Positions 41,034 to 52,208 of a DNA stretch of 64,000 nucleotides are shown here, in pieces (the stretch's first letter is position 1; each line of letters opens with the position of its first letter). The position numbers were made by a program, and so were the translations under genes. This stretch comes from Clostridiales bacterium FE2011 (GTDB taxonomy: Bacteria; Bacillota; Clostridia; Christensenellales; Aristaeellaceae), in the NCBI GenBank assembly GCA_017569305.1, contig CP069418.1:1240001-1304000 (forward strand), in the 5' to 3' direction. The notes under the pieces were generated by a model. The model had not been told where the DNA came from, did not search any database, and saw only the letters and a list, made by a program, of their open reading frames with translations.

Positions 41034-41062
41034 TTGACTTCCCCAAGGCCCCTTTGTACAAT
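41034..41062 (+). promoter_or_regulatory. Promoter of tldD-tldE
   Basis: TTGACT at 41034-41039, 17-nt spacer, TACAAT at 41057-41062. The ATG is about 30 nt downstream of the expected start. Confidence 0.8.
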
Positions 41063-41098
41063 GCTTCTGTCGCAATATATGAGAAAAGGAGAACCTTC

Positions 41099-42544
41099 AT
41101 GAAAGCACCTTTTTCATCTTATCTGAATGGAATTGCTCCTGGGCTGAAGGAGCTGATCACCCTGCTCCGCGGGCGGTATGACTACGTATCCGTACTGTCC
41201 ACAGACTCCGACGGCTTTTCTGTCACCATTTCCCAGCGTTCCAGGAACGTATCCCATGAAACGATTGCCACGGAACGCGGCACAGTGGTTCGTGTGTACA
41301 AAAACGGACTCTATGCTGAATCAGCCTTTACCGGTTTTGATCCGGCCAAAGCAAAGGAAACCTTCGAAAGCATTACCCGGGAGCTGGACGCCCAGCTGCG
41401 CCTGCTGAACGCAAACGGTGTCAAGGCTTATGAAACCGGTATCCTTCCGGACGAAGCCCGTACTGTATTTGCGGAAAAGGAAACCGGCCGCCTGCCGAAA
41501 GAAGAAAACATTTCTGCCCTGGTGGACAAGCTGTCTGCCGTTTCCGATCAGGGGATGAAAGACGGAGCGGACAAAGGCCTGAATGTGATCGATTTCCATG
41601 TCCGCGCCTCCTCCACCCATGTCTGCAAGATGTTCCTGACCGAGCATCAGGATCTCCGCCAGTCCTACGTCTTCAGCGAGGGAATGGCCGCCGCACTGGT
41701 TGCCGGTGAAGACCGTACGGAGATGGCTTACACCTCCCTGTCCGGTCTGGGCGGTCCGGAACTGTTCGATCACATGGAAGATAAAATCCCCGAAGTCCTG
41801 CGCATCGCGAAAGACCTGATTTCCGCGGAGCGGGTTGTGCCCGGGGAATATGACGTCATCACCGCGCCGGAAGTTACCGGCCTGATCGCTCATGAAGCCT
41901 TCGGACACGGTGTGGAGATGGATATGTTTGTCAAGGGGCGTGCTCTGGGTGCCGACTACATCGGCAAACGGGTCGGTTCCGATCTGGTCACCATGCATGA
42001 AGGCGCCCTGTGCGCAGAAGATGTTACCTCTTATGCCTTTGACGATGAGGGAACTCCCGCCGGTGACGTCACGGAAATTGACCGCGGCATCCTGCGCGGA
42101 GGAATCTGCGATGCCCTCAGCGCCCTGCGGCTGGGCGTCAAGCCCACCGGCAACGGCAAACGGGAGAATTTCTCCCACAAGGTCTACACCCGCATGACCA
42201 ATACCATGTTCGATTCCGGTACCAGCACCCTTGAGGAAATGATTGCTTCCATTGAAAACGGTTATCTGCTTGAAGGCATGCAGTCCGGTATGGAAGATCC
42301 CAAGCACTGGGGTATCCAGTGCATCCTCGACCGCGGCTATGAAATCAAAAACGGCAAGCTGACCGGCAAAGTGGTTTCTCCGCTGGTCATGACCGGTTAT
42401 GTGCCGGACCTGCTGGGTTCCGTCTCCATGGTATCCACTGACCGGGAGAGCTTTGGTGCCGGCGCCTGCGGCAAAGGACACAAGGAATGGGTCAAGGTGG
42501 CCGACGGCGGTCCCTATCTGAAAGCGAAAGTGAGGCTGGGATAA
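41099..42544 (+). CDS. tldD: TldD metalloprotease subunit
   Basis: Subunit of the TldD/TldE zinc protease, which degrades unfolded peptides and in enterobacteria removes leader peptides from YcaO-modified peptides such as microcin B17. 481 residues from the ATG at 41099 (AAAAGGAGAA upstream; a longer frame lacks a ribosome site). The TldD zinc site HEAFGHGVEMD is present (HExxxH: H and E in IAHEAFGH), plus GDVTEIDRGILRGGICD and the C-terminal LLGSVSMVSTDRESFGAGACGKG ligand region. Start of a two-gene operon. Confidence 0.96.
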   Translation: MKAPFSSYLNGIAPGLKELITLLRGRYDYVSVLSTDSDGFSVTISQRSRNVSHETIATERGTVVRVYKNGLYAESAFTGFDPAKAKETFESITRELDAQLRLLNANGVKAYETGILPDEARTVFAEKETGRLPKEENISALVDKLSAVSDQGMKDGADKGLNVIDFHVRASSTHVCKMFLTEHQDLRQSYVFSEGMAAALVAGEDRTEMAYTSLSGLGGPELFDHMEDKIPEVLRIAKDLISAERVVPGEYDVITAPEVTGLIAHEAFGHGVEMDMFVKGRALGADYIGKRVGSDLVTMHEGALCAEDVTSYAFDDEGTPAGDVTEIDRGILRGGICDALSALRLGVKPTGNGKRENFSHKVYTRMTNTMFDSGTSTLEEMIASIENGYLLEGMQSGMEDPKHWGIQCILDRGYEIKNGKLTGKVVSPLVMTGYVPDLLGSVSMVSTDRESFGAGACGKGHKEWVKVADGGPYLKAKVRLG

Positions 42545-43836
42545 TGGCTGATATGAATAACGCAGCGCTGGACACGCTGCTGAATGTACTGAAAACCTCA
42601 GGGGCAGATGCCTGGGAAGTAACCGATGAGGAAGAAAAAGGCTGGGAATTCTACTTTATCCGTCACAGCCTGGACCAGCACAGGGTCAAGGATGTCCGTT
42701 CCTTCTCTGTCAGCGTCTACAAAAAGTTTGACGACTGCCTTGGCCGTGCGGAAGCGTCCATTCCTTCCGACGCTTCGGAAGAAGAGATGCGCCGCATCGT
42801 AAACGGGCTGTGCAGTGATGCTTCCTATGTTCGCAATCCCTTCTATACGCTGAATACTCCCAGCGCGGCTGAAGCGGAAACAAAAGCGGAAAAGATTGAT
42901 CTGGAAGCCATCAGCGGTGATTTTATCAAAGCACTGGCTTCGGTTCCGGAAACAGAAACAGAAGACCTGAACAGCTATGAAATCTTTGTCAGTGAGATCC
43001 GCCGCCGTTTCCTGAACAGCAACGGCATCGATGTGACCTCCGTCTATCCCTCCTCCATGGTGGAAGCAGTGGTCAACGCCCGGAAAGACGGACATGAAAT
43101 CGAACTGTACCGGATGCTCAAATCCGGCACCTGCGACCGGGAACAGCTGACCGCAGATCTGACTGAGGCCCTTACCTATGGCCGTGACAGGCTGGTTACT
43201 GTTCCTACTCCCGCATTGGAGAAGATGGATGTGGTCTTTGCCACCGATCCGTCCGTGGAACTCTATCGATTCTTTGCCTCCAAGCTGTTTACATCCGTGG
43301 TGTACCGTGGCATGTCCGACTGGAAAATCGGGGATATGGTTGCACCGGAAAACCTGACCATGCGTGCGGTACGTTCCCTGTCCAACTCTTCCCGCAACTT
43401 TGCGTATGATGAGGAGGGTGCTCCGATCCGTGACCTGACCCTGATCGATCACGGCAAGGCTGTCAGCTACATGGGCAGCCGCCAGTTTGCCCAATACTTG
43501 GGGATGGATTCGTCCTTCATCGCTTCCAATATTGTGGTGGACGGCGGAACCGAATCCGCAGCTGATCTGCGCACCGGTGATTTCCTGGAGGTTGTGGAGT
43601 TTTCCGATTTCCAGGTGGACCTGATTACCGGCGACATCGCCGGTGAGATCCGTCTGGCCTACCTGCACCAGGGCGGTAAGGTTACTCCCGTCTGCGGCGG
43701 CTCGGTTTCCGGCAGTTTCCCGGAACTGTCAAAGACCATGCGTTTCTCGAAGGAATCCCGGCAGTATAACACCGTCCTGATTCCTTCCGTAACCCGCCTG
43801 CAGGGTGTTACCATTACCGGCGTGGAAAACGCCTGA
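42544..43836 (+). CDS. tldE: TldE/PmbA protease subunit
   Basis: Non-zinc partner subunit of TldD, 430 residues, with no HExxxH motif as expected. It shows RSFSVSVYKKFDDCLGRAEAS, the central LEKMDVVFATDPSVELYRFFASKL, LTMRAVRSLSNSSRNFAYDEE and the C-terminal SGSFPELSKTMRFSKES. The start codon overlaps the tldD stop by 1 nt (TAATG), so the subunits are made together. It ends tail-to-tail against the AT-rich peptide cluster, separated only by a strong terminator. Confidence 0.95.
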   Translation: MADMNNAALDTLLNVLKTSGADAWEVTDEEEKGWEFYFIRHSLDQHRVKDVRSFSVSVYKKFDDCLGRAEASIPSDASEEEMRRIVNGLCSDASYVRNPFYTLNTPSAAEAETKAEKIDLEAISGDFIKALASVPETETEDLNSYEIFVSEIRRRFLNSNGIDVTSVYPSSMVEAVVNARKDGHEIELYRMLKSGTCDREQLTADLTEALTYGRDRLVTVPTPALEKMDVVFATDPSVELYRFFASKLFTSVVYRGMSDWKIGDMVAPENLTMRAVRSLSNSSRNFAYDEEGAPIRDLTLIDHGKAVSYMGSRQFAQYLGMDSSFIASNIVVDGGTESAADLRTGDFLEVVEFSDFQVDLITGDIAGEIRLAYLHQGGKVTPVCGGSVSGSFPELSKTMRFSKESRQYNTVLIPSVTRLQGVTITGVENA

Positions 43837-43852
43837 TTACCCAGGCTTAAAC

Positions 43853-43884
43853 AAAGGGCGGCCTCACATGTGAGACCGCCCTTT
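43853..43884. terminator. Bidirectional terminator between tldE and the ABC exporter gene
   Basis: Stem AAAGGGCGG.CTCAC/GTGAG.CCGCCCTTT with single mismatched bases in the middle; A- and T-rich flanks on both sides. It serves tldE on the plus strand and the exporter on the minus strand, and marks the left border of the AT-rich island. Confidence 0.85.
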
Positions 43885-43896
43885 ATCCATTAATTG

Positions 43897-45453
43897 TCAA
43901 TTGGTTTTTGTTATATCAACATTAACAAAATCTTCCGGAAGATCGTCGTGCGAGATGATAATCGTAATCCGTCGTTCCTTCTCTGACTTAAGCATATCAT
44001 AGATCTCGTCTGAAGTCTGACGGTCTATGTTGCTGCACACCTCATCCAGAATCAAAATCTCCGGGTCGGACAAAAGTGCCCGAACAATCGCGATCTTTTG
44101 CTTTTCACCGCCCGAAAGATTGGCTCCGCCCTCCAGAATTTCATCATCCAGCGTTTTGTTGCTTAACACAGAAGACAGCAGTGATATCTTCTGCAGCTGC
44201 GCGTCTTCAATGCCCAGATACTCTTTTCCAAACAACAGGTTATCTCTGACAGAACCCTTGATGATCGGAATGTTTTGTGAAACATATTCAACGTTTTTCC
44301 TCAATTCCTTATTATCAATATCCGACAGGCTGATCCCGTTAATCTTCACCCCGTCAATCTGGCGGAATTTCAGCAAGGCTTTCGCAAAGGTACTTTTCCC
44401 GCAACCGGACTTTCCGTAAATCCGTCCGATATCACCCTTGTGCAGTTCAGCATGCGCTTCAAAATCAAGAATTTTATCCGTCAGATCGATCTTGTTGACA
44501 TCAATCGTCAGGGTCGATACTGCATCCATCCCGGTTCCGCCTGTTTCTTCCCCGTTTTCCTTCAGCATTTTTTCCAGATTCAGCGCCGCGACATAGTCCT
44601 TCTTGTTAATATTGGCCCGCGTGATCGATTGTACCGCTTCAAAATAGAGCGGGACAATGATGGTTGCGATCATCAGAAGATAAGGTGATGTTTTAGCCTC
44701 CAGGAAAGAATATACAATAAGCAGCATAATCACATTCTGCAGAATGGTTCCCAGGCTGGACAGCGCAATCGATGATGTTTGCGCGAACTTGTTGATCCTT
44801 GCCATCGCGTCATAGATTTTATCCAAAGCCGGATTCATCTTTTTGATCACAGGCTCCGTACTCGGCAGCTGCTTGAAGTAATCCGGTTCCTGAATATAAC
44901 TCATGATTTCCTGAAAGCCGAGGCCTGTTTGTTTCTGCAGCTCAATGGACCGCTTGGTAAGCTCCTTATTAATCAGTTTGAAACCGAAATAGATGAATGG
45001 AATGAACAAAAGCATTGCTGCTGCAATAATCAGACTGACCTGACTTAAGAGTGCAATCGCCGCTGCCGCAATGATTACCGACGACCAGATCTGTATATAC
45101 CCGCCTGTCATATATGCATATATGCCGGTAACCGCCGTAATAATCCGTTCGAGAAGGTTGGAAGGTCCTTCCTGGATGATCCTGTCGTATTTCATGTTCA
45201 TGAAATTCCGCAGATAGGATCTGGCATTTTCTTTGTTGAACTTATTCGCGTAGTTTTCCCGATAGAGTACCAGAATCGTGTTTACGACATTCGTGATCAG
45301 TAAAATAGCAATAATCCAGATAATCCGCTTAACATCCAGTGAATCTCCGGATGACCCCCAGATCTGCAGGCAGATCGGCGGCATCAGGCTCAGGAGACTT
45401 GATACCACCACAATGCTCAGCATAAACACAAAGAACTTCTTATACTCTTTCAT
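43897..45453 (-). CDS. ABC exporter (fused membrane and ATPase domains) of the peptide cluster
   Basis: A 518-residue half-transporter. Six membrane segments span residues ~10-290 (FFVFMLSIVVVSSLLSLMPP; IIWIIAILLITNVVNTILVL), then the ATPase with Walker A YGKSGCGKSTFAKAL, signature ANLSGGEKQKIAIVRAL, Walker B ILILDEVCSNID and H-loop IISHDD. There is no N-terminal C39 peptidase domain, so leader removal must be done by another enzyme. The start at 45453 (MKEYKKFF) follows GGGAGGA and overlaps the protease stop by 4 nt. It probably exports the finished peptide and may give self-immunity. Confidence 0.9.
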   Translation of the reverse strand: MKEYKKFFVFMLSIVVVSSLLSLMPPICLQIWGSSGDSLDVKRIIWIIAILLITNVVNTILVLYRENYANKFNKENARSYLRNFMNMKYDRIIQEGPSNLLERIITAVTGIYAYMTGGYIQIWSSVIIAAAAIALLSQVSLIIAAAMLLFIPFIYFGFKLINKELTKRSIELQKQTGLGFQEIMSYIQEPDYFKQLPSTEPVIKKMNPALDKIYDAMARINKFAQTSSIALSSLGTILQNVIMLLIVYSFLEAKTSPYLLMIATIIVPLYFEAVQSITRANINKKDYVAALNLEKMLKENGEETGGTGMDAVSTLTIDVNKIDLTDKILDFEAHAELHKGDIGRIYGKSGCGKSTFAKALLKFRQIDGVKINGISLSDIDNKELRKNVEYVSQNIPIIKGSVRDNLLFGKEYLGIEDAQLQKISLLSSVLSNKTLDDEILEGGANLSGGEKQKIAIVRALLSDPEILILDEVCSNIDRQTSDEIYDMLKSEKERRITIIISHDDLPEDFVNVDITKTN

Positions 45454-46379
45454 TTCTGTTCCTCCCTGTGATCCAACCTGTAACAAAGGTCTAAGATCTC
45501 TTCAGCATTATATTCACAAATATTATCAACCAGATAATCAGGTTCGATCTCTTTTACACTTCTATTTCCGATATAAAACTTTGTTTCCGGAACATGAAGG
45601 ATAAAGCTTCCGAATTGTTTTCTTTTGCAAATCATATCTTTTCCATACATCTTCGTTCCAACAAGAATCGCATCTACATATTCTTGCGCTATGCCTGCGA
45701 ATATTTCTGCACTGCTGCAGGTAATTCTGTCCACGATCAAATATACCGTTTTGAAAGGTTCTGATCTATCTGCACGGAAATTCAAGGAATTGTCCTTTTT
45801 ATTTTGAAACATCCTCATCTTCGAGCCAAAGATCATCTCATATGCTGTCATCATTTCAGCGATTCTACCACCTCGATTCAACCGCAGGTCCAGAATGAGC
45901 GTTTGATTGATTTTTGTTTTCGATTCATCAATCGAGGTGAAATCCGCTACTTTAAGATATTGCATGCCTTTTTTACATATGTCGTTTCGTTCCTCCGCCA
46001 GAAGATTCACCTCGACTTTCTTTTCAAATAACTTAACATCACTGCTGCTTATTCTCAAGACCCAAAGCTTAACCTGTGCAGGGATATCCTTTATGTCCAG
46101 GCGTTTCTGGATTTTTTGCGGAGCGATCAAAAGATCCCCGGGTACTATTTCTTCCATTCCAGGATCAAATACTTTCTCTACTCTGTAGATATCATCTGCA
46201 AGCTTTCTGGTTTCGAAGCCCAGAATATCAGCAATGATCCGTTCATCACTTTCCATACGAAAATATGGAATTGACATGGTATTTACAATGCTCTCTGCCA
46301 GTCGTTTTTCAACATCCGGGTTATTGCTCTCCATGTCTGCAAGAAGGTTTATCACCTGTTCCAGATTACTGATATCCAT
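45450..46379 (-). CDS. Cytoplasmic S41-family (C-terminal-processing-like) protease
   Basis: A 309-residue protein. Residues ~160-285 match the S41 catalytic domain: LILDLRLNRGGRIAEMM, then VYLIVDRITCSSAEIFAGIA with the nucleophile S222, and VGTKMYGKDM with K247. The 25-residue Ser-Lys spacing equals that of E. coli Tsp (S430/K455). There is no signal peptide, no membrane anchor and no clear PDZ domain, so it should act in the cytoplasm. Between a YcaO gene and an exporter that lacks a peptidase domain, the natural role is leader removal from the modified peptide (inference). It overlaps the YcaO 3' end by 14 nt. Confidence 0.85.
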   Translation of the reverse strand: MDISNLEQVINLLADMESNNPDVEKRLAESIVNTMSIPYFRMESDERIIADILGFETRKLADDIYRVEKVFDPGMEEIVPGDLLIAPQKIQKRLDIKDIPAQVKLWVLRISSSDVKLFEKKVEVNLLAEERNDICKKGMQYLKVADFTSIDESKTKINQTLILDLRLNRGGRIAEMMTAYEMIFGSKMRMFQNKKDNSLNFRADRSEPFKTVYLIVDRITCSSAEIFAGIAQEYVDAILVGTKMYGKDMICKRKQFGSFILHVPETKFYIGNRSVKEIEPDYLVDNICEYNAEEILDLCYRLDHREEQK

Positions 46380-48018
46380 ACAGCTTTATATATAAACTCC
46401 TTCTATTCTGATAAAAGTAATTATTTTCAACATTCCATTTTACTTCAAATAAATCCGCCGAATGGAAAAGAAGATTAATAGCTGCATCGCGAACATTCTT
46501 TTTAAAAACTCCCCCAATATATCCCCCGAACGAATCAACATCTTGCGACAAAACTTTTTTATCCAGGATTAATTTCTCCATCATCATCAAGCATAGATAT
46601 ACTGGATCGCGTTTGCAGAGTTTAATATGATTGATCATAAAGTGGTAGGATTCTTCAATTTCTCCTTTTCTAAGATACATCAAGTTCAAGAATTCAAACA
46701 TTTTGAATTTTGGAAGCTGTCTGCCATTTAACTTGACCGAAATAACCGGATAATGCAACCCGAGTTCCTTGTTTAATCCATTACTCTTTTCAAGGCTGGC
46801 TGCTAAAGCGTTCAGCTCTTTGACAGAAACAGATTTTGATTCAAACAAGGATTTGATATGCTTGTTTACATCAAACATCCCCCGTGCCTTGGGAATATCC
46901 TCCGGTGATGCAATCTCGCTCATTCCCGGAATGATGATCCGGAAGGCCTGAAAGGCTTCTGAAGAATTATCTTGATAATAAATCGTATAATTCAATGCTT
47001 CGATCAGGTTCTTTAATTGCTGAAAATACCCTTTATTATCAGATGCATCTGTTGATTTCAGCGTACTCTTACCATGATTCTTCAGCAACTCAATTGGAAA
47101 TGAAGTGTTTCCATCCGTAAAATATCGCAGTAGCTGATCGTGCTCACTCGTAAAAACGTCTTCTATGTGAACCATATGGCTCATCTGTTGATTTGACCTT
47201 CCCTGTGCAAATTCCGTGAAACACCGTTCCAATGCGATATTAAGATTCGGATGCGCACCCATCTTCATAAAATATGTCTGGTTGTTTTGATTGATAAATA
47301 TAACGCCAAGTACCGGGATTTCTTTACCCAAAGAAAAATCCTTAACGCAGACAGATATGCCCATATTTTCAAGTTTATTGATCAGCATATCAAAGTATTC
47401 GGCTTTTGCCAGTTCTTTATAATTATAATCTGGCGTTAATACTTTTCCGCTAAAGAGCTTCCTTGCAACATATCTCTCCAATATCTCGGAAAGGCCTTGT
47501 GTAAATGCTTCTTCATAGGAATTGCCGGCACACATTCCGTTTGTCCCATATAAGAAATCAGAAACCTTAGTCGGAACTATTATCTGATCTCCACTAAAGG
47601 AAATAAACACATCATCCTTCAGTGCTCTGGTCTTTCCAAGGCTCTTGGTGATTTGTTTTGTAAGATTTTCAATCTTTGATTCGGATACTCCGATTTTTTT
47701 AAGCAACAGCTCAACATGAATCTCCGATTTTTCGCATGAGTTTGACATCCAATACAATGTATCATTATTAATGCGGAAAAAAGCCTTGTTCAATAAACGT
47801 TCCTGCATTTCCCCGTGTGCACTTGCCAGTGCTAATTCCCGGTTAATCCCTTTTCCATTTACCGAGAACCCGGTTCCTGGAATTTTAACTGATACAGAAT
47901 ACAATCCACTGTTGTTTTCATGCCACTCTTCAATAAAGAAGATTTTTTTGCTTTGCAGATATTCAGTGCTGATCCGTATCGTGTCGATCGGTTCCCGATC
48001 CTTCGCTCCCTGATACAT
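46366..48018 (-). CDS. YcaO-family peptide-modifying enzyme
   Basis: A 550-residue YcaO-domain protein. ATP-binding signatures are SAHGEMQERL (SxxxExxER, residues 67-74), TQGLSEILERYV (QxxxExxER, 174-182) and ALERCFTEFAQGR (ExxxExxQxR, near 275). YcaO enzymes activate a backbone amide with ATP to make azolines, thioamides or amidines. The PxPxP C-terminus common in azoline-forming members is absent (it ends KLYGYQ). No E1-like or TfuA partner is seen; a helical repeat-like region occupies ~430-520. The ATG at 48018 follows GAAGGAGAA. The gene start overlaps the radical SAM gene by 56 nt. Confidence 0.9.
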   Translation of the reverse strand: MYQGAKDREPIDTIRISTEYLQSKKIFFIEEWHENNSGLYSVSVKIPGTGFSVNGKGINRELALASAHGEMQERLLNKAFFRINNDTLYWMSNSCEKSEIHVELLLKKIGVSESKIENLTKQITKSLGKTRALKDDVFISFSGDQIIVPTKVSDFLYGTNGMCAGNSYEEAFTQGLSEILERYVARKLFSGKVLTPDYNYKELAKAEYFDMLINKLENMGISVCVKDFSLGKEIPVLGVIFINQNNQTYFMKMGAHPNLNIALERCFTEFAQGRSNQQMSHMVHIEDVFTSEHDQLLRYFTDGNTSFPIELLKNHGKSTLKSTDASDNKGYFQQLKNLIEALNYTIYYQDNSSEAFQAFRIIIPGMSEIASPEDIPKARGMFDVNKHIKSLFESKSVSVKELNALAASLEKSNGLNKELGLHYPVISVKLNGRQLPKFKMFEFLNLMYLRKGEIEESYHFMINHIKLCKRDPVYLCLMMMEKLILDKKVLSQDVDSFGGYIGGVFKKNVRDAAINLLFHSADLFEVKWNVENNYFYQNRRSLYIKLYGYQ

Positions 48019-49267
48019 CACAATTCTCCTTCTGAAAAAGGTTTTTTATGTCGGCAATCGCTTTTTGTTTATAAAACTCACAGAAGAAATCGTTGCATCG
48101 TTCCAACTGTTGATATAGGTTAAAAGTAATAGCTTTGCAGCCATTTCCGCAAAAATACTTGTATACGCAATCCCTGCATTTTTCAATGCTGTTAATATCC
48201 CTTTGCGGTATGACTGTTTCTGCCTTTTCCCTCATCTGCCTCCACCAGTTTTCATTTTTGATATTTCCAAGAATGAAACCCGGCTTTATTAAGCTTTGAC
48301 AGGGATAAATATCTCCGTTGGAATCAATCGCAATCTCTGATTTTCCAGCTCCGCATTCGACTATTTTTTGTTTGGATGATCCGTTCGAAAACTCATTCTG
48401 AGGCGGAATAAACTCATCCCATTCCTTAGAAGAATTCGGAAGATATCCACTCGTAACATATCGTACCCCCATCTCCCGCATCCGTTCTCTCAGAGATTCG
48501 ATATCATTTACATTATATTTTGTTATTACCGTACGAACGGTCAGCTTTCTTTTTTGTTCTTTATCCAAACCATCGATATTTGAAAACACATTGTAATGAG
48601 CCGAATTCTCTCGATTTCGATCATTGTTTTCAGCAATGGCGGAATCCAGGCTGACTATTATTTCGTTCGCATATCGAAATATGCGTTTAACTTCATTTTT
48701 CAACAATGTTCCGTTTGTTAAAACATTAACCTTGCAATCTGCAGGAACAGACATCAGTATTTCTTCCAGGTCTGTTCTCAATGTGGGTTCTCCTCCGGTG
48801 AAAACAAATGTTCTCACGCCTTTTCCGTACAGTTTATCGATAGCACTCTTCCATTCTTCCGTGCTAAGCTCTTCACGTCTTGAATTTATATTTTTTTTGT
48901 TATAACAATAATAACAATTCAAATTGCATCTTTGCGTCACATGAAGATATGCAACTCTTAATTCCTGATCGCAGCTGAGCTTATTATACCGATGGCAAAA
49001 ATCTTCTTTCTGGAAATCCTCTTTCCTGATAAAGAAGATTTTTTTCTGGACCATCTGTTCCGTAAAGTCTTCATAATCTTTTGGATCTATCTGATAACAT
49101 TCGAACATTGTGTCCAATGACATTTTGTTCTGGTTCTCAACAATCGTTTTATATAAATACATTTTGGAATATGAAAGCCGTATTGCTTTCCGCAAGTTTC
49201 CACAATAAAGGATATATTTACCTTTATCTGGGATAATTGTATATAGTGGATCACTGTAATAAATCAT
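47963..49267 (-). CDS. Radical SAM-SPASM peptide maturase with PqqD-like N-terminal region
   Basis: A 434-residue enzyme. Residues 1-85 look like a winged-helix, PqqD-like recognition element (IIPDKGKYILYCGNLRKAIR, then FTEQMVQKKIFFIR). The radical SAM core has CNLNCYYC (C114, C118, C121) and FTGGEPTLR. The C-terminal SPASM domain has ECGAGKSEIAIDSNGDIYPCQ, CRDCVYKYFCGNGCK and CNDFFCEF, enough Cys for auxiliary clusters. SPASM maturases make thioether, C-C or epimer changes in RiPPs. First enzyme gene after the precursor, beyond a large hairpin. The last residues are encoded over the YcaO start. Confidence 0.93.
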   Translation of the reverse strand: MIYYSDPLYTIIPDKGKYILYCGNLRKAIRLSYSKMYLYKTIVENQNKMSLDTMFECYQIDPKDYEDFTEQMVQKKIFFIRKEDFQKEDFCHRYNKLSCDQELRVAYLHVTQRCNLNCYYCYNKKNINSRREELSTEEWKSAIDKLYGKGVRTFVFTGGEPTLRTDLEEILMSVPADCKVNVLTNGTLLKNEVKRIFRYANEIIVSLDSAIAENNDRNRENSAHYNVFSNIDGLDKEQKRKLTVRTVITKYNVNDIESLRERMREMGVRYVTSGYLPNSSKEWDEFIPPQNEFSNGSSKQKIVECGAGKSEIAIDSNGDIYPCQSLIKPGFILGNIKNENWWRQMREKAETVIPQRDINSIEKCRDCVYKYFCGNGCKAITFNLYQQLERCNDFFCEFYKQKAIADIKNLFQKENCDVSGSEGSGTDRHDTDQH

Positions 49268-49295
49268 CTTACTTGCCTCATTGTTTTGAATTCAT

Positions 49296-49340
49296 GCAAG
49301 GGACATTGCCCAACTCACACAACGGGCAATGTCCCTTTGC
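49296..49340 (-). promoter_or_regulatory. Large hairpin between the precursor gene and the maturase gene
   Basis: Arms GCAAGGGACATTGCCC and GGGCAATGTCCCTTTGC pair over 16 bp with one bulged base and a 12-nt loop. It begins 6 nt after the precursor stop. No U-run follows, so it is more likely an mRNA 3'-end stabiliser, processing site or attenuator than a full terminator. This layout commonly raises precursor over enzyme levels in RiPP operons. Confidence 0.8.
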
Positions 49341-49346
49341 AAATGA

Positions 49347-49466
49347 TTAAGATCCTGATCCGGAGGAAAGTCCGCACAGGCAATGCAGTTCGAAGCTGGC
49401 TTCGGTCTCGAGTTCGTCATATTCGATGACTTCAACTTCTTCCTGCTTGTTCATGTTTTCCAACAT
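49347..49466 (-). CDS. Candidate RiPP precursor peptide (39 residues, core HCLCGLSSGSGS)
   Basis: The peptide starts MLENMNKQEEVEVIEYDELE and ends TEASFEL-HCLCGLSSGSGS. The first ~27 residues are acidic (many Glu/Asp), like a leader; the last 12 hold two Cys, five Ser and three Gly, and no Lys or Asp. AAGGAGG lies 8 nt before the ATG. It is the first gene of the cluster, followed by a 16-bp hairpin and the radical SAM maturase. Cys and Ser in the core fit both YcaO heterocyclisation and SPASM thioether formation. The division into leader and core is my inference; no Gly-Gly cleavage site is present. Confidence 0.85.
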   Translation of the reverse strand: MLENMNKQEEVEVIEYDELETEASFELHCLCGLSSGSGS

Positions 49467-49493
49467 ATTTACGTCCTCCTTTCTAAGATGGCA

Positions 49494-49545
49494 CTTGAAT
49501 ATCAGTGCATTCTTGTATTAATTTCAGCAAATCATCTTGAATATC
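49494..49545. repeat. Direct repeat CTTGAATATC in the precursor leader
   Basis: Two exact copies of CTTGAATATC at 49494-49503 and 49536-49545, 42 bp apart. The first lies in a small hairpin (GCACT/AGTGC) close to the precursor ribosome site. Confidence 0.5.
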
Positions 49546-49576
49546 TATTTCACGTGACTGCCGAAACTATAATTAA

Positions 49577-49604
49577 ATCATAACGAAATAACGTTGCTGA
49601 ACAA
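49577..49604 (-). promoter_or_regulatory. Possible promoter of the precursor-led operon
   Basis: Minus strand TTGTTC, 16-nt spacer, TATGAT, giving a leader of about 105 nt. Several AT-rich alternatives exist nearby. Confidence 0.4.
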
Positions 49605-49624
49605 TCAACTATCATGAAACACTT

Positions 49625-49669
49625 TGAGAGTAATAGACATCTATTTTGTTTCTTAAAGTATTATTCTCA
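49625..49669. promoter_or_regulatory. Inverted repeat between the divergent peptide genes, possible operator
   Basis: TGAGAGTAATA and TATTATTCTCA, an 11-bp inverted repeat with one mismatch and 23 bp between arms. It lies between the precursor and the secreted-peptide genes. The right arm overlaps a possible -35 (TTCTCA, then TAGAAT 17 nt on) for the plus-strand peptide. A site for the two-HTH regulator is a reasonable guess. Confidence 0.45.
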
Positions 49670-49732
49670 TCGAAAAACAAAAAAAATAGAATACTACCCA
49701 TAAACTATATTGTTTTTAAGGAGATGCTGGTT

Positions 49733-49912
49733 ATGAAAAAGATTATTGCTATGATAGTTGTTTTAGGTCTGGTTCTTTCTGCTTATGTATGCAGTTTGTC
49801 AAACTCTTCTCCTTTAGACAACTCAATACTGGTTGCAGAAGGTGAAACTGATTACACTCAAGGTAAAGAATTGAGAGGCGACGCTGGCTTTTATTACATG
49901 AAATCAATCTGA
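49733..49912 (+). CDS. Small secreted peptide, probable pheromone precursor
   Basis: A 59-residue peptide starting MKKIIAMIVVLGLVLSAYVC, a clear Sec signal or membrane segment. A short hydrophilic stretch and the ending GDAGFYYMKSI follow. AAGGAG precedes the chosen ATG at 9 nt; longer frames lack a ribosome site. It runs tail-to-tail with the large XRE/helical-repeat regulator, overlapping its 3' end by 19 nt. Small exported peptides beside such receptors are the pheromones of RRNPP systems (PapR/PlcR, QssP/Qsr in solventogenic clostridia). No function is proved by sequence. Confidence 0.75.
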   Translation: MKKIIAMIVVLGLVLSAYVCSLSNSSPLDNSILVAEGETDYTQGKELRGDAGFYYMKSI

Positions 49913-51789
49913 TATTCTGCTAAAAGACTCGTCAATTCTTCCGCTAAATCATTTTCCTCAATAAGGAGAAGATTCTGACGCACAAAGTCAATTTCATCCT
50001 TCAGGTTATGCAGCATCCAACCGCGTTTTATGATTGATCTGATGTGTGTAAACATATACAGCACTTTGTAATCACTATAATACCTCATTAGCGGGGTTTC
50101 ATATTGCTCTTTCATTTTATCCAGTTCCGAAAAAGTGTTGTTTGTATAATAGTAGTACGATAAATTGTTCATCAGTACCGGAATATAAAAGCGGCACTGT
50201 TCTTCCGGAAAGTTGTAATTTGTCAGCATTGAAAGAAGTTCTCTTGTCTCTGCGATTCCCTTGTTCGGATTGTTTCTGTAATGGCAATGACAAATATGCT
50301 GCACGATGTTAATTTCTGTCCACGACATTCTCTTGGTCAACCGGTTCTGCGCATAATTCTTTTGCGTGAGCTGGATGGCCTTTTTTAGTTCTTTTTCCAT
50401 TTCACATTCTGGCAGCAGAGCAGCAGCTTTCCATAACATCACATACTGCTGCACCAAAGGATCTTTTGCCATATGCAGTGATTCGATATTGTTTAGGGTA
50501 TCAGCAACATCCTTTTTCCGCTTTGTAGTCAGAAAAAGAAGATTCCTCTTATAGGAGTAGTATTCTTTTTCTTCAGATGAACCGTAAAAATCAAATATGC
50601 GTGTCACGATTCCAAGTCTTTGAATGATCGCCTCCGCCAATGTCAATCGCGGCACAACATCGCCTTTTTCGATTTTATAAAGGACGGAACGGTTGCATAA
50701 GCCATCACATGTTTCATCAAGAGACAGGCCCTGTTTTTCACGCAAATGCTTGATCACATTTCCCAGACCAAAGCCAAATCCATCCTCGAAAGAATAAACA
50801 CCTTTAGACATGGAAGAGGGATCATGTCTTTGGGGAAACATATAATTCTTCTTTGTTTTTCTTCTAATGAACAGCTTTTTAAAGCCATCAGGGATACCGT
50901 CACATTTGTCCAGAAATTGGCAGCAGGTATTGATATAAGCCGGTCCGGAAAGACTGGATCCTGCATTCAGCTGCCGAACTTTTCCCTCAGCTTTTTCATA
51001 ATGGCCATTGATATATAATGCTGCTGCATAAGCAAAACAAGCACGTAATGTCGGTACGCTAATAAAGCTGTTGACCGCGTTATGATAATCTTCATACGCT
51101 CCTTCCACAGATGCTTTTTGTGGATCAAAATTCAAGAGATAATGCTGACGCAAAAGCTCCACAGCGCCATGCGGGAAACGTCCCCCCGTATTTCTTTCTG
51201 AAACGGGAAACTGTTTCTCCACAATGGCTAGAATCCGAGAACTGTTCGTCTGATCATTCTGCAAAATGCATACTTCGCCAAGCATTATCAGAAGGCGTGT
51301 TTCCACTGAAAGAAGCATCCGCTTTGGAGAAATCTTGTTTATATCATCGCAGCCAGTAATGCTGAGCGCATGAAGGAGCAACTCCTTTCTGGCTGCATAA
51401 TCTTCATGGCCGGACAATTCCAAAATATAGGCATGATACATCAACCATTGTTGATAATACAGCTTATTTTCAGCAAAATAACTTTCTTCAATTTTTCTTA
51501 ATTCGTCCAGCGCAATAGAAAACTGCCAGGAATCAATGTAAAAATCCACATTGCTCACAGCCATATAACACTGAAAATCATCAAGGCTGACAAATTGAGG
51601 ATAAGGATTAATCATTTCCCCGCATTTTTCTGTCAGGCTTTGAAAAACAATCGGAGAAATAGCTTGTTTGCCATTTTCAATATTGGAAAGAGTCTGAACG
51701 GAACATATGCCATCGCAGAAATCCCACTGAGACATACCAGTAGCTAGCCTGAGTTCTCGAATAATAGATCCGGCGTCTCTAACTGCCAT
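49894..51789 (-). CDS. PlcR/Rgg-like regulator with two XRE domains and helical repeats
   Basis: A 631-residue protein. HTH 1 is at ~8-58 (RELRLATGMSQWDFCDGICS, VQTLSNIENGK). A helical repeat region follows (~65-330). HTH 2 is at ~343-395 (IKHLREKQGLSLDETCDGLC, NRSVLYKIEKGD), then a second helical region to the end. Both HTHs share CDG(I/L)C and the IE(N/K)G turn typical of PlcR/Rgg-type receptors, so the protein looks like a tandem duplication of an RRNPP unit. AAAGGAA precedes the ATG. It probably senses the adjacent secreted peptide and controls the peptide cluster. AT-rich like the cluster. Confidence 0.88.
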   Translation of the reverse strand: MAVRDAGSIIRELRLATGMSQWDFCDGICSVQTLSNIENGKQAISPIVFQSLTEKCGEMINPYPQFVSLDDFQCYMAVSNVDFYIDSWQFSIALDELRKIEESYFAENKLYYQQWLMYHAYILELSGHEDYAARKELLLHALSITGCDDINKISPKRMLLSVETRLLIMLGEVCILQNDQTNSSRILAIVEKQFPVSERNTGGRFPHGAVELLRQHYLLNFDPQKASVEGAYEDYHNAVNSFISVPTLRACFAYAAALYINGHYEKAEGKVRQLNAGSSLSGPAYINTCCQFLDKCDGIPDGFKKLFIRRKTKKNYMFPQRHDPSSMSKGVYSFEDGFGFGLGNVIKHLREKQGLSLDETCDGLCNRSVLYKIEKGDVVPRLTLAEAIIQRLGIVTRIFDFYGSSEEKEYYSYKRNLLFLTTKRKKDVADTLNNIESLHMAKDPLVQQYVMLWKAAALLPECEMEKELKKAIQLTQKNYAQNRLTKRMSWTEINIVQHICHCHYRNNPNKGIAETRELLSMLTNYNFPEEQCRFYIPVLMNNLSYYYYTNNTFSELDKMKEQYETPLMRYYSDYKVLYMFTHIRSIIKRGWMLHNLKDEIDFVRQNLLLIEENDLAEELTSLLAEYQIDFM

Positions 51790-51940
51790 AACAGATTCCT
51801 TTCACATTCAAGCGTATTTGGATTATTGGAATCAGTGGTATAGTGTCATTTCTTTGGTCTTATATATTTTCGGTTTTCTATGATCAATATGAGACATTTT
51901 CATTATATAGAATTGCTCCCGCATGTTCAAAGCCAAAACA

Positions 51941-52144
51941 CTAAAAATGCAAAAACGAACGTCGCGTTTGCATGGTTTGCACGCATGAGGGAATAGCCTG
52001 CGCTTCCTGCACCTTTCGCAAAGCGTCCGCCGGGTCTTCTGTGTACTCGGTGCTGTAATCCTTGCTGCTTACAACGAAAAGAAAGTCATGGATACGATTC
52101 AGTCCCGGAAGGAATAACCGTGTTTCCGGATCAGTGATACAGAA
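51941..52144 (-). pseudogene. Possible 3' gene remnant (start-less reading frame)
   Basis: An open stretch without a usable start codon reads ITDPETRLFLPGLNRIHDFL then VVSSKDYSTEYTEDPADALR and KVQEAQAIP before a stop. Composition looks protein-like, but I recognise no family. It lies between the AT-rich island and the dipeptidase terminator, where an insertion could have cut an older gene. A chance frame is possible. The rest of the 51.79-52.15 kb gap shows nothing. Confidence 0.25.
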
Positions 52145-52150
52145 TCATAA

Positions 52151-52182
52151 GGGGATGCCACACGAAGAAGTGAGGCATCCCC
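52151..52182. terminator. Terminator after the U34/C69 dipeptidase gene
   Basis: Stem GGGGATGCC/GGCATCCCC, partly extended by CAC/GTG, 27 nt after the dipeptidase stop. T-rich flank on the plus side (TTTGTTTG), weaker on the minus side. Confidence 0.7.
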
Positions 52183-52208
52183 TTTGTTTGTTCGGTTGTC
52201 CAGCCGCA

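Follow-up and report, generated by a model that had tools for sequence, protein, structure and literature searches.

Streptosactin belongs to the GGG subfamily of streptococcal ribosomally synthesized and post-translationally modified peptides (RiPPs) matured by radical S-adenosylmethionine (SAM) enzymes (RaS-RiPPs), in which a short precursor (StsA/GggA), with Cys ahead of a Gly/Ser-rich core, is paired with a SPASM maturase (StsB/GggB). Its rings join Cys25 to Ser28 and Cys31 to Gly34, each from residue i to i+3 (PMC8172795, where Cys15 is printed elsewhere), and streptococcal RaS-RiPPs are controlled by peptide-sensing Rgg/SHP systems (PMC13361665). YcaO enzymes and SPASM radical SAM proteins occur together, with a single precursor per cluster, in the Bacteroidales itf cluster and in BGC8 of Porphyromonas gulae (PMC10352776), and PMC8120280 lists TfuA-YcaO clusters that include a SPASM radical SAM protein; streptosactin and YcaO are both covered, separately, in PMC9231227. 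Here we describe a gene cluster within 64,000 nt of Clostridiales bacterium FE2011 (GCA_017569305.1, contig CP069418.1, positions 1,240,001 to 1,304,000; hereafter the window), where minus-strand genes at 43897..49466 encode, in order, a precursor peptide, a SPASM radical SAM enzyme, a YcaO, an S41 protease and an ATP-binding cassette (ABC) exporter. With somewhat more confidence than doubt, we read it as a RiPP cassette, remotely akin to the streptosactin (StsA/StsB) sactipeptides, to which a YcaO has been added, operating in the manner proposed below.

The locus shares with streptosactin the short precursor, the Cys followed by a Gly/Ser-rich core and the SPASM maturase, and departs from it in an acidic leader, an added YcaO and S41 protease, the close-set Cys residues of a CxCG motif, and its occurrence in Clostridia rather than streptococci. 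An earlier note, made from the letters alone, had described five minus-strand genes led by a 39-residue peptide, with overlaps of 56, 14 and 4 nt among the last four, and both the coordinates and Pfam bear this out, the conserved ATG of YcaO and the ATG of the exporter being used as starts (for YcaO in preference to an upstream GTG, because its homologues start at the ATG). Each of the four large proteins exceeds a Pfam cut-off (bits against cut-off: Radical_SAM 73.5 vs 29.5 and SPASM 29.3 vs 21.5; YcaO 141.1 vs 25.7; Peptidase_S41 66 vs 24; ABC_tran 84.8 vs 25), with the membrane domain of the exporter below its own (19.8 vs 28).

The precursor is a real gene. It has a strong ribosome-binding site, AGGAGG 5′ of the ATG, and a search of 5.8 billion proteins at E ≤10 returned three matches, namely its own cluster P0001 (five member sequences at the 90% identity level, on 115 contigs), P0242 and P0243. 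EVIEYDELETEAS recurs in the leader of all three, as does LHCLCG[LI]SSG[SA]G[SA] in the core, and 26 of the 39 residues of the window precursor are invariant in an alignment with the two metagenome homologues. Equal sizes of the longest contigs on which matches lie suggest gene linkage, short of a neighborhood directly seen: the size for P0242 (3507) is that of radical SAM match P0123, and the size for P0243 (11305) is that of both radical SAM P0124 and YcaO P0003. More broadly, the closest YcaO matches (P0002-P0011) and radical SAM matches (P0122-P0136) have the sizes 11305, 119222, 4292, and 3420 in common, and 38219 additionally ties YcaO P0015 to radical SAM P0136. An equal size of 11622, involving YcaO matches P0007 and P0106, may be due to chance, and reliance is placed only on the four closest-match sizes and the precursor matches. 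By the same comparison, no YcaO match is tied to the P0242 contig.

Related loci extend this picture. A profile of the maturase recovered one other genome among 391 from the class (G578, from another family; E ≤1e-40), 12 of 249 genomes from the order of G578, itself counted (E ≤1e-45), and three of 398 from the phylum, the genome of the window included. In G578, Pfam finds the maturase, YcaO, S41 protease and exporter in identical order, its YcaO and S41 protein being 28 and 24% identical to those of the window. The G578 precursor looks broken, its frame FEPDFDLTKELEACQCLCGLQA*SGSGGGGGS having no ATG, GTG or TTG start, and all four genes for enzymes and export there are open frames. Ten loci were examined, the weaker matches G875, G1243, and G1381 being left out, and in the seven with stronger matches (G985, G859, G1067, G922, G902, G923, and G905) a CxCG..GxG peptide lies immediately 5′ of the maturase, in each case with a purine-rich ribosome-binding site and a near-full-length exporter match at the locus; the frame in G905 extends to 61 residues. 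At G856, the peptide is rich in Cys and Gly but lacks the motif, and no precursor peptide was recognized beside the maturases of G858 and G1058. Across 420,366 bases (the window and 20 loci), the motif occurs in a short frame eight times, always beside a maturase, a count that is descriptive, as the pattern was defined after the peptides had been seen. Together with the conserved precursors P0242 and P0243, these peptides uphold the earlier note in calling this a RiPP cluster with a genuine precursor; it had named homologous clusters devoid of a conserved precursor as evidence to the contrary, and the comparison came out in favor of the RiPP reading.

An S41 protease is found in two of the ten loci (G1067 and G922) and a YcaO in none of the ten stretches (tblastn, E ≤0.01; the G922 contig measures just 9.8 kb). 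YcaO is an extra part of the cassette. The S41 protease does not depend on its presence, being found, as is the exporter, in relatives that have no YcaO. The motif takes the form CLCG in three YcaO-tied cores (that of the window, that of P0243 by equal contig size, and the broken frame of G578) and in the close relative P0242, and in none of the seven motif peptides from loci without a YcaO match. A second shared element is the spacer between precursor and maturase, which folds into a stable hairpin in the window (-31.2 kcal/mol, z -4.43) and in all six other spacers folded (G578, G985, G859, G1067, G902, and G923; z -3.7 to -7.8), a set that leaves out G922, G905, and G856 and includes the first 150 nt of the 340-nt spacer of G1067. 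Behind the exporter of G985 (L043:5753-6556) lies an HEFVH protein with no Pfam match, perhaps an alternative leader protease.

The maturase begins, in its structure model, with a winged helix resembling the RiPP recognition element (RRE) at about residues 9-74, and carries C114, C118, and C121 along with seven auxiliary-cluster Cys residues; a SPASM radical SAM enzyme with an RRE-like domain and a Cys-bearing core are sactipeptide features common to other radical SAM RiPPs. StsB (NF045574) is its best NCBIfam model, and the precursors, where they match any model, match only those of StsA type. On these comparisons, the cluster is probably a distant relative of streptosactin-type sactipeptides, and its core and maturase hint weakly at Cys thioether bridges of the streptosactin type. 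The i+3 positions of C29 and C31 are Gly32 and Ser34, both constant in the three close precursors; the acceptor site is only a guess, because the residue three past the second Cys of CxC varies among distant precursors. On the radical SAM tree, the presence or absence of YcaO requires at least two changes, with its presence for five P rows taken from equal longest-contig sizes.

The nearest solved YcaO, in both sequence (24% identity) and fold, is that of E. coli, which thioamidates the backbone of uL16, and the window model fits 4q86 best. E75, E78, E199, and E202 are invariant in all eight alignment rows, E. coli included; the first three are presumably ATP-site residues of E. coli YcaO, and such glutamates occur in YcaOs of other chemistry too, so that their retention does not prove a thioamide. 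E202 of the E. coli enzyme is named in PMC13063428. The two proteins also have in common a C-terminal helical domain and the absence of TfuA. They differ in that the window YcaO neighbors a precursor within a RiPP operon and scores 189.9 bits against the E. coli YcaO model NF040716, below its cut-off of 700. On the YcaO tree, the G578 protein occupies a very long branch without stable placement. Because the window YcaO is closer to the thioamide-making E. coli YcaO than to azoline formers, a thioamidated, thioether-bridged peptide is predicted. The fully specified form of this product, a thioamidated sactipeptide with Cys-to-alpha-carbon bridges and a thioamide installed by a TfuA-free E. coli-type YcaO, under the control of its own pheromone and exchanged among related species as an 8.4-kb cassette, is advanced tentatively and at less than even confidence. 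The earlier proposal of a backbone change (azoline or thioamide) combined with radical cross-links is thereby narrowed: the YcaO type favors the thioamide, the Cys thioethers are weakly indicated, and the azoline is disfavored.

The genes, the conserved precursor, the hairpin, the RRE-like fold of the model, the enzyme lineages and the cross-species transfer are established by these comparisons. In the proposed working, where the nature and position of the bonds, the sequence of steps, the regulation and the activity all have the standing of proposals, the RRE-like domain of the radical SAM enzyme would bind the acidic leader, and the enzyme would link C29 and C31 through thioethers to downstream core residues, with alpha carbons as the likeliest attachment points. 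YcaO, using ATP, would activate a backbone amide, with a thioamide as the most likely outcome, after which the S41 protease would cut off the leader and the ABC protein would export the product. The layout suggests that a regulator with two helix-turn-helix (HTH) domains and a small exported peptide would probably turn the cassette on by quorum sensing. What the cassette exports would probably serve as a narrow-spectrum antibacterial or as a signal.

Several observations weigh against this account. The window maturase scores 120.9 bits against StsB NF045574, short of the cut-off of 625, and all 18 maturases also match no fewer than 24 other radical SAM models, whose functions vary. The window precursor has no listed match to StsA (NF045558) at E ≤10, its only match being to the StsA-related NF045559 (13.4 bits, E 0.078, cut-off 75); the best relative precursor reaches 26.4 bits against NF045558 (cut-off 42), and four of the 11 precursors scanned match no model. 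CteB, the closest solved maturase structure, forms gamma-thioethers (PMC10352776). Intact YcaO-tied precursors are few and belong to one clade (the window together with RUG111, another species of the genus, and P0243 by equal contig size), and the G578 precursor stretch (L026:5767-5979) holds an in-frame TAA and TGA. For the YcaO, Foldseek places LynD, an azoline former, about level with the thioamide-forming MJ1094, both behind E. coli YcaO. TfuA (PF07812) has no match in the whole genome, by a search whose control was positive in one of 14 genomes (Methanosarcina acetivorans), and there is therefore no evident sulfur source for a thioamide. Finally, E. coli YcaO left the short uL16 peptides tried unmodified and required a folded substrate (PMC13063428), a need that contrasts with the leader peptide encoded here. 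The cluster falls short of every curated family cut-off tested and is therefore not filed under any named family.

Among the alternatives, it is somewhat unlikely that the bonds formed by the radical SAM enzyme are beta- or gamma-thioethers, as in ranthipeptides, or of another kind, in place of alpha-thioethers. The position of CteB as nearest solved structure would fit such chemistry, as would the matches of PapB and SCIFF models to all 18 maturases, but StsB is the top model for the window maturase, and in the cores seen Gly, Ala and Ser account for most positions downstream of the Cys, Gly having no side-chain carbon. Against SCIFF TIGR03974, the window maturase scores 80.3 bits, short of the cut-off of 425. 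SCIFF precursors have six Cys in 45 residues; unlike those of the SCIFF type (CteB), the window precursor has two in 39. Azoline-forming YcaOs are common in RiPPs, and the core offers the residues from which azolines usually form, Cys and Ser, so that the YcaO might form azolines from them and yield a linear, azole-bearing peptide that also has some thioether bridges, as the equal Foldseek placement of LynD and MJ1094 would allow. We consider this unlikely, given low scores against LynD/TruD and SagD-type TIGR03604 (48.8 bits, cut-off 219.25), the consumption of thioether donors that azolines on Cys would entail, and the Pfam result that the seven island genes include no ThiF-like, ocin-ThiF, dehydrogenase, E1-like or lantibiotic-dehydratase partner. 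Bottromycin-type YcaOs close a macrolactamidine, and an amidine or macrolactamidine beside radical-made bridges would be compatible with a stand-alone YcaO lacking TfuA; ItfB, itself the YcaO of a SPASM radical SAM cluster, makes a backbone amidine. This outcome nonetheless appears improbable, as ItfB acts between the final two residues, Thr and Phe (PMC10352776), and the last two residues of the present core are Gly-Ser or Gly-Ala. A non-peptide pathway is rejected, a conserved precursor being present at the same position in relatives.

Table 1. Coordinates of the cassette and of the other features of its island in the window.
Feature	Position	Strand	Remarks
Precursor peptide, 39 amino acids	49347..49466	-	Acidic leader EVEVIEYDELETEAS, core about LHCLCGLSSGSGS
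Hairpin spacer between precursor and enzymes	49268..49346	-	Stable on folding, without a U run behind
Radical SAM/SPASM maturase, 434 amino acids	47963..49267	-	Pfam, RRE-like winged helix, cluster Cys
YcaO, E. coli YcaO type, 550 amino acids, C-terminal helical domain	46366..48018	-	ATP-site glutamates retained
S41 family serine protease, 309 amino acids	45450..46379	-	Pfam; presumed leader peptidase
Single-chain ABC exporter, 518 amino acids from ATG	43897..45453	-	Membrane part and ATPase
XRE regulator, two HTH domains	49894..51789	-	Presumed island regulator
59-amino-acid peptide, signal-like N-terminus (by eye)	49733..49912	+	Presumed pheromone or lipopeptide
Low-GC island, 8.4 kb, 7 genes	43837..52208	.	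Between convergent tldE-like and C69 dipeptidase genes

In Pfam, the S41 protein has the S41 domain alone, with no signal peptide visible by eye, and the Pfam scan finds no C39 peptidase domain in the exporter. The HTH domains of the regulator lie at residues 10-57 and 342-393, its two halves are distantly alike, and it has no other match in the genome at E ≤1e-6. The gene for the 59-residue peptide diverges from the precursor gene, with the regulator gene beyond, and scanning the divergent spacer for promoters and repeats turned up nothing convincing. Regulator and peptide (49733-51789), an addition to what the earlier note described, resemble a peptide-sensing pair; where streptococci use Rgg/SHP control, this island pairs an XRE gene with a small exported peptide.

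The island has a GC content of 40.0%, against 54.8 and 55.4% in its flanks, and the whole cluster is present in RUG111 at 100% protein identity. Relative to RUG111 (L006), in counts that take in no insertions in RUG111, positions 43,831-51,829 show one mismatch, synonymous and in the precursor, with three more up to 52,400. The left flank is 73-89% identical (500-bp blocks), and the right flank 96-99% to 56 kb except for one block of 85.5%, then 90% and 80-86%, with 88-92% further right. The cassette sits between convergent genes and, most likely, was exchanged between species through recombination that carried the right flank with it. YcaO is matched in five of 150 relatives, at 100% in G000 and G008 and at 30-32% in the remaining three. 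In G001, of the same genus, the aligned ends of the island-flanking genes are 72 bases apart and the island is absent from that site, and in G035 (L078:4002-11191) the site between tldE and the dipeptidase gene is filled by 7.2 kb of other genes, at 54% GC, that resemble oligopeptide ABC transport. Plasmid and phage origins were considered and rejected: plasmids gave 25 records for the YcaO and 30 for the radical SAM protein, all below 60% identity (among the 20 listed of the 25, annotated matches are ycaO, YcaO-like or OsmC/YcaO), phages gave one YcaO record, also below 60%, and viral_contigs held no relative.

A TldD/TldE-like pair on the plus strand (41054-43836) adjoins the cluster as part of the flanking chromosome. 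TldD/E proteases process microcin B17, a YcaO-made peptide; as partners of the cassette they were rejected, lying outside the low-GC island on the opposite strand, with a TldE-like gene also in the island-less G001 and G035, and a helper role is possible. Elsewhere in G001 (L020:1026-6350), an operon encodes a 634-residue YcaO, an StsB-like radical SAM protein (215 bits to StsB, below cut-off), and a stand-alone PqqD, accompanied by an XRE gene in divergent orientation and, 5′ of the YcaO, a small peptide containing a hydrophobic stretch; no CxCG precursor was seen in the operon. G085 (L018:4155-11737) has three radical SAM/SPASM-like genes followed in series by YcaO-like stretches. In G578, L027:2689-11208 is likely another RiPP cluster: besides radical SAM/SPASM-like and ABC genes, it encodes a 51-residue peptide and a small protein that looks PqqD-like by eye.

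The suggestion that no named class uses all three enzymes holds in part. RiPPs with YcaO and SPASM proteins have been published (PMC10352776, PMC8120280), and the S41 protease does not go with YcaO; no report of YcaO and SPASM enzymes with a streptosactin-like precursor and an S41 protease was found in a literature search that left most subscription journals outside. The Bacteroidales clusters are set apart, by description only, by a GG leader, a C39-type exporter, an amidine-forming YcaO (ItfB) and their origin in a different phylum. Under one published rule table (PMC13289728), YcaO together with PF04055 is accepted, so that rule-based mining would probably class this cluster as a thiopeptide. 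Should the proposed reading be correct, radical thioether bridging and a YcaO backbone change would be united on one short core, and an E. coli-type YcaO would act on a peptide that carries a leader, with implications for how these enzymes choose substrate and sulfur. The family, consisting of precursor, hairpin, maturase and exporter with optional S41 protease and YcaO, allows cores with and without YcaO to be compared, and the recent transfer of the cassette across species suggests an ecological use.
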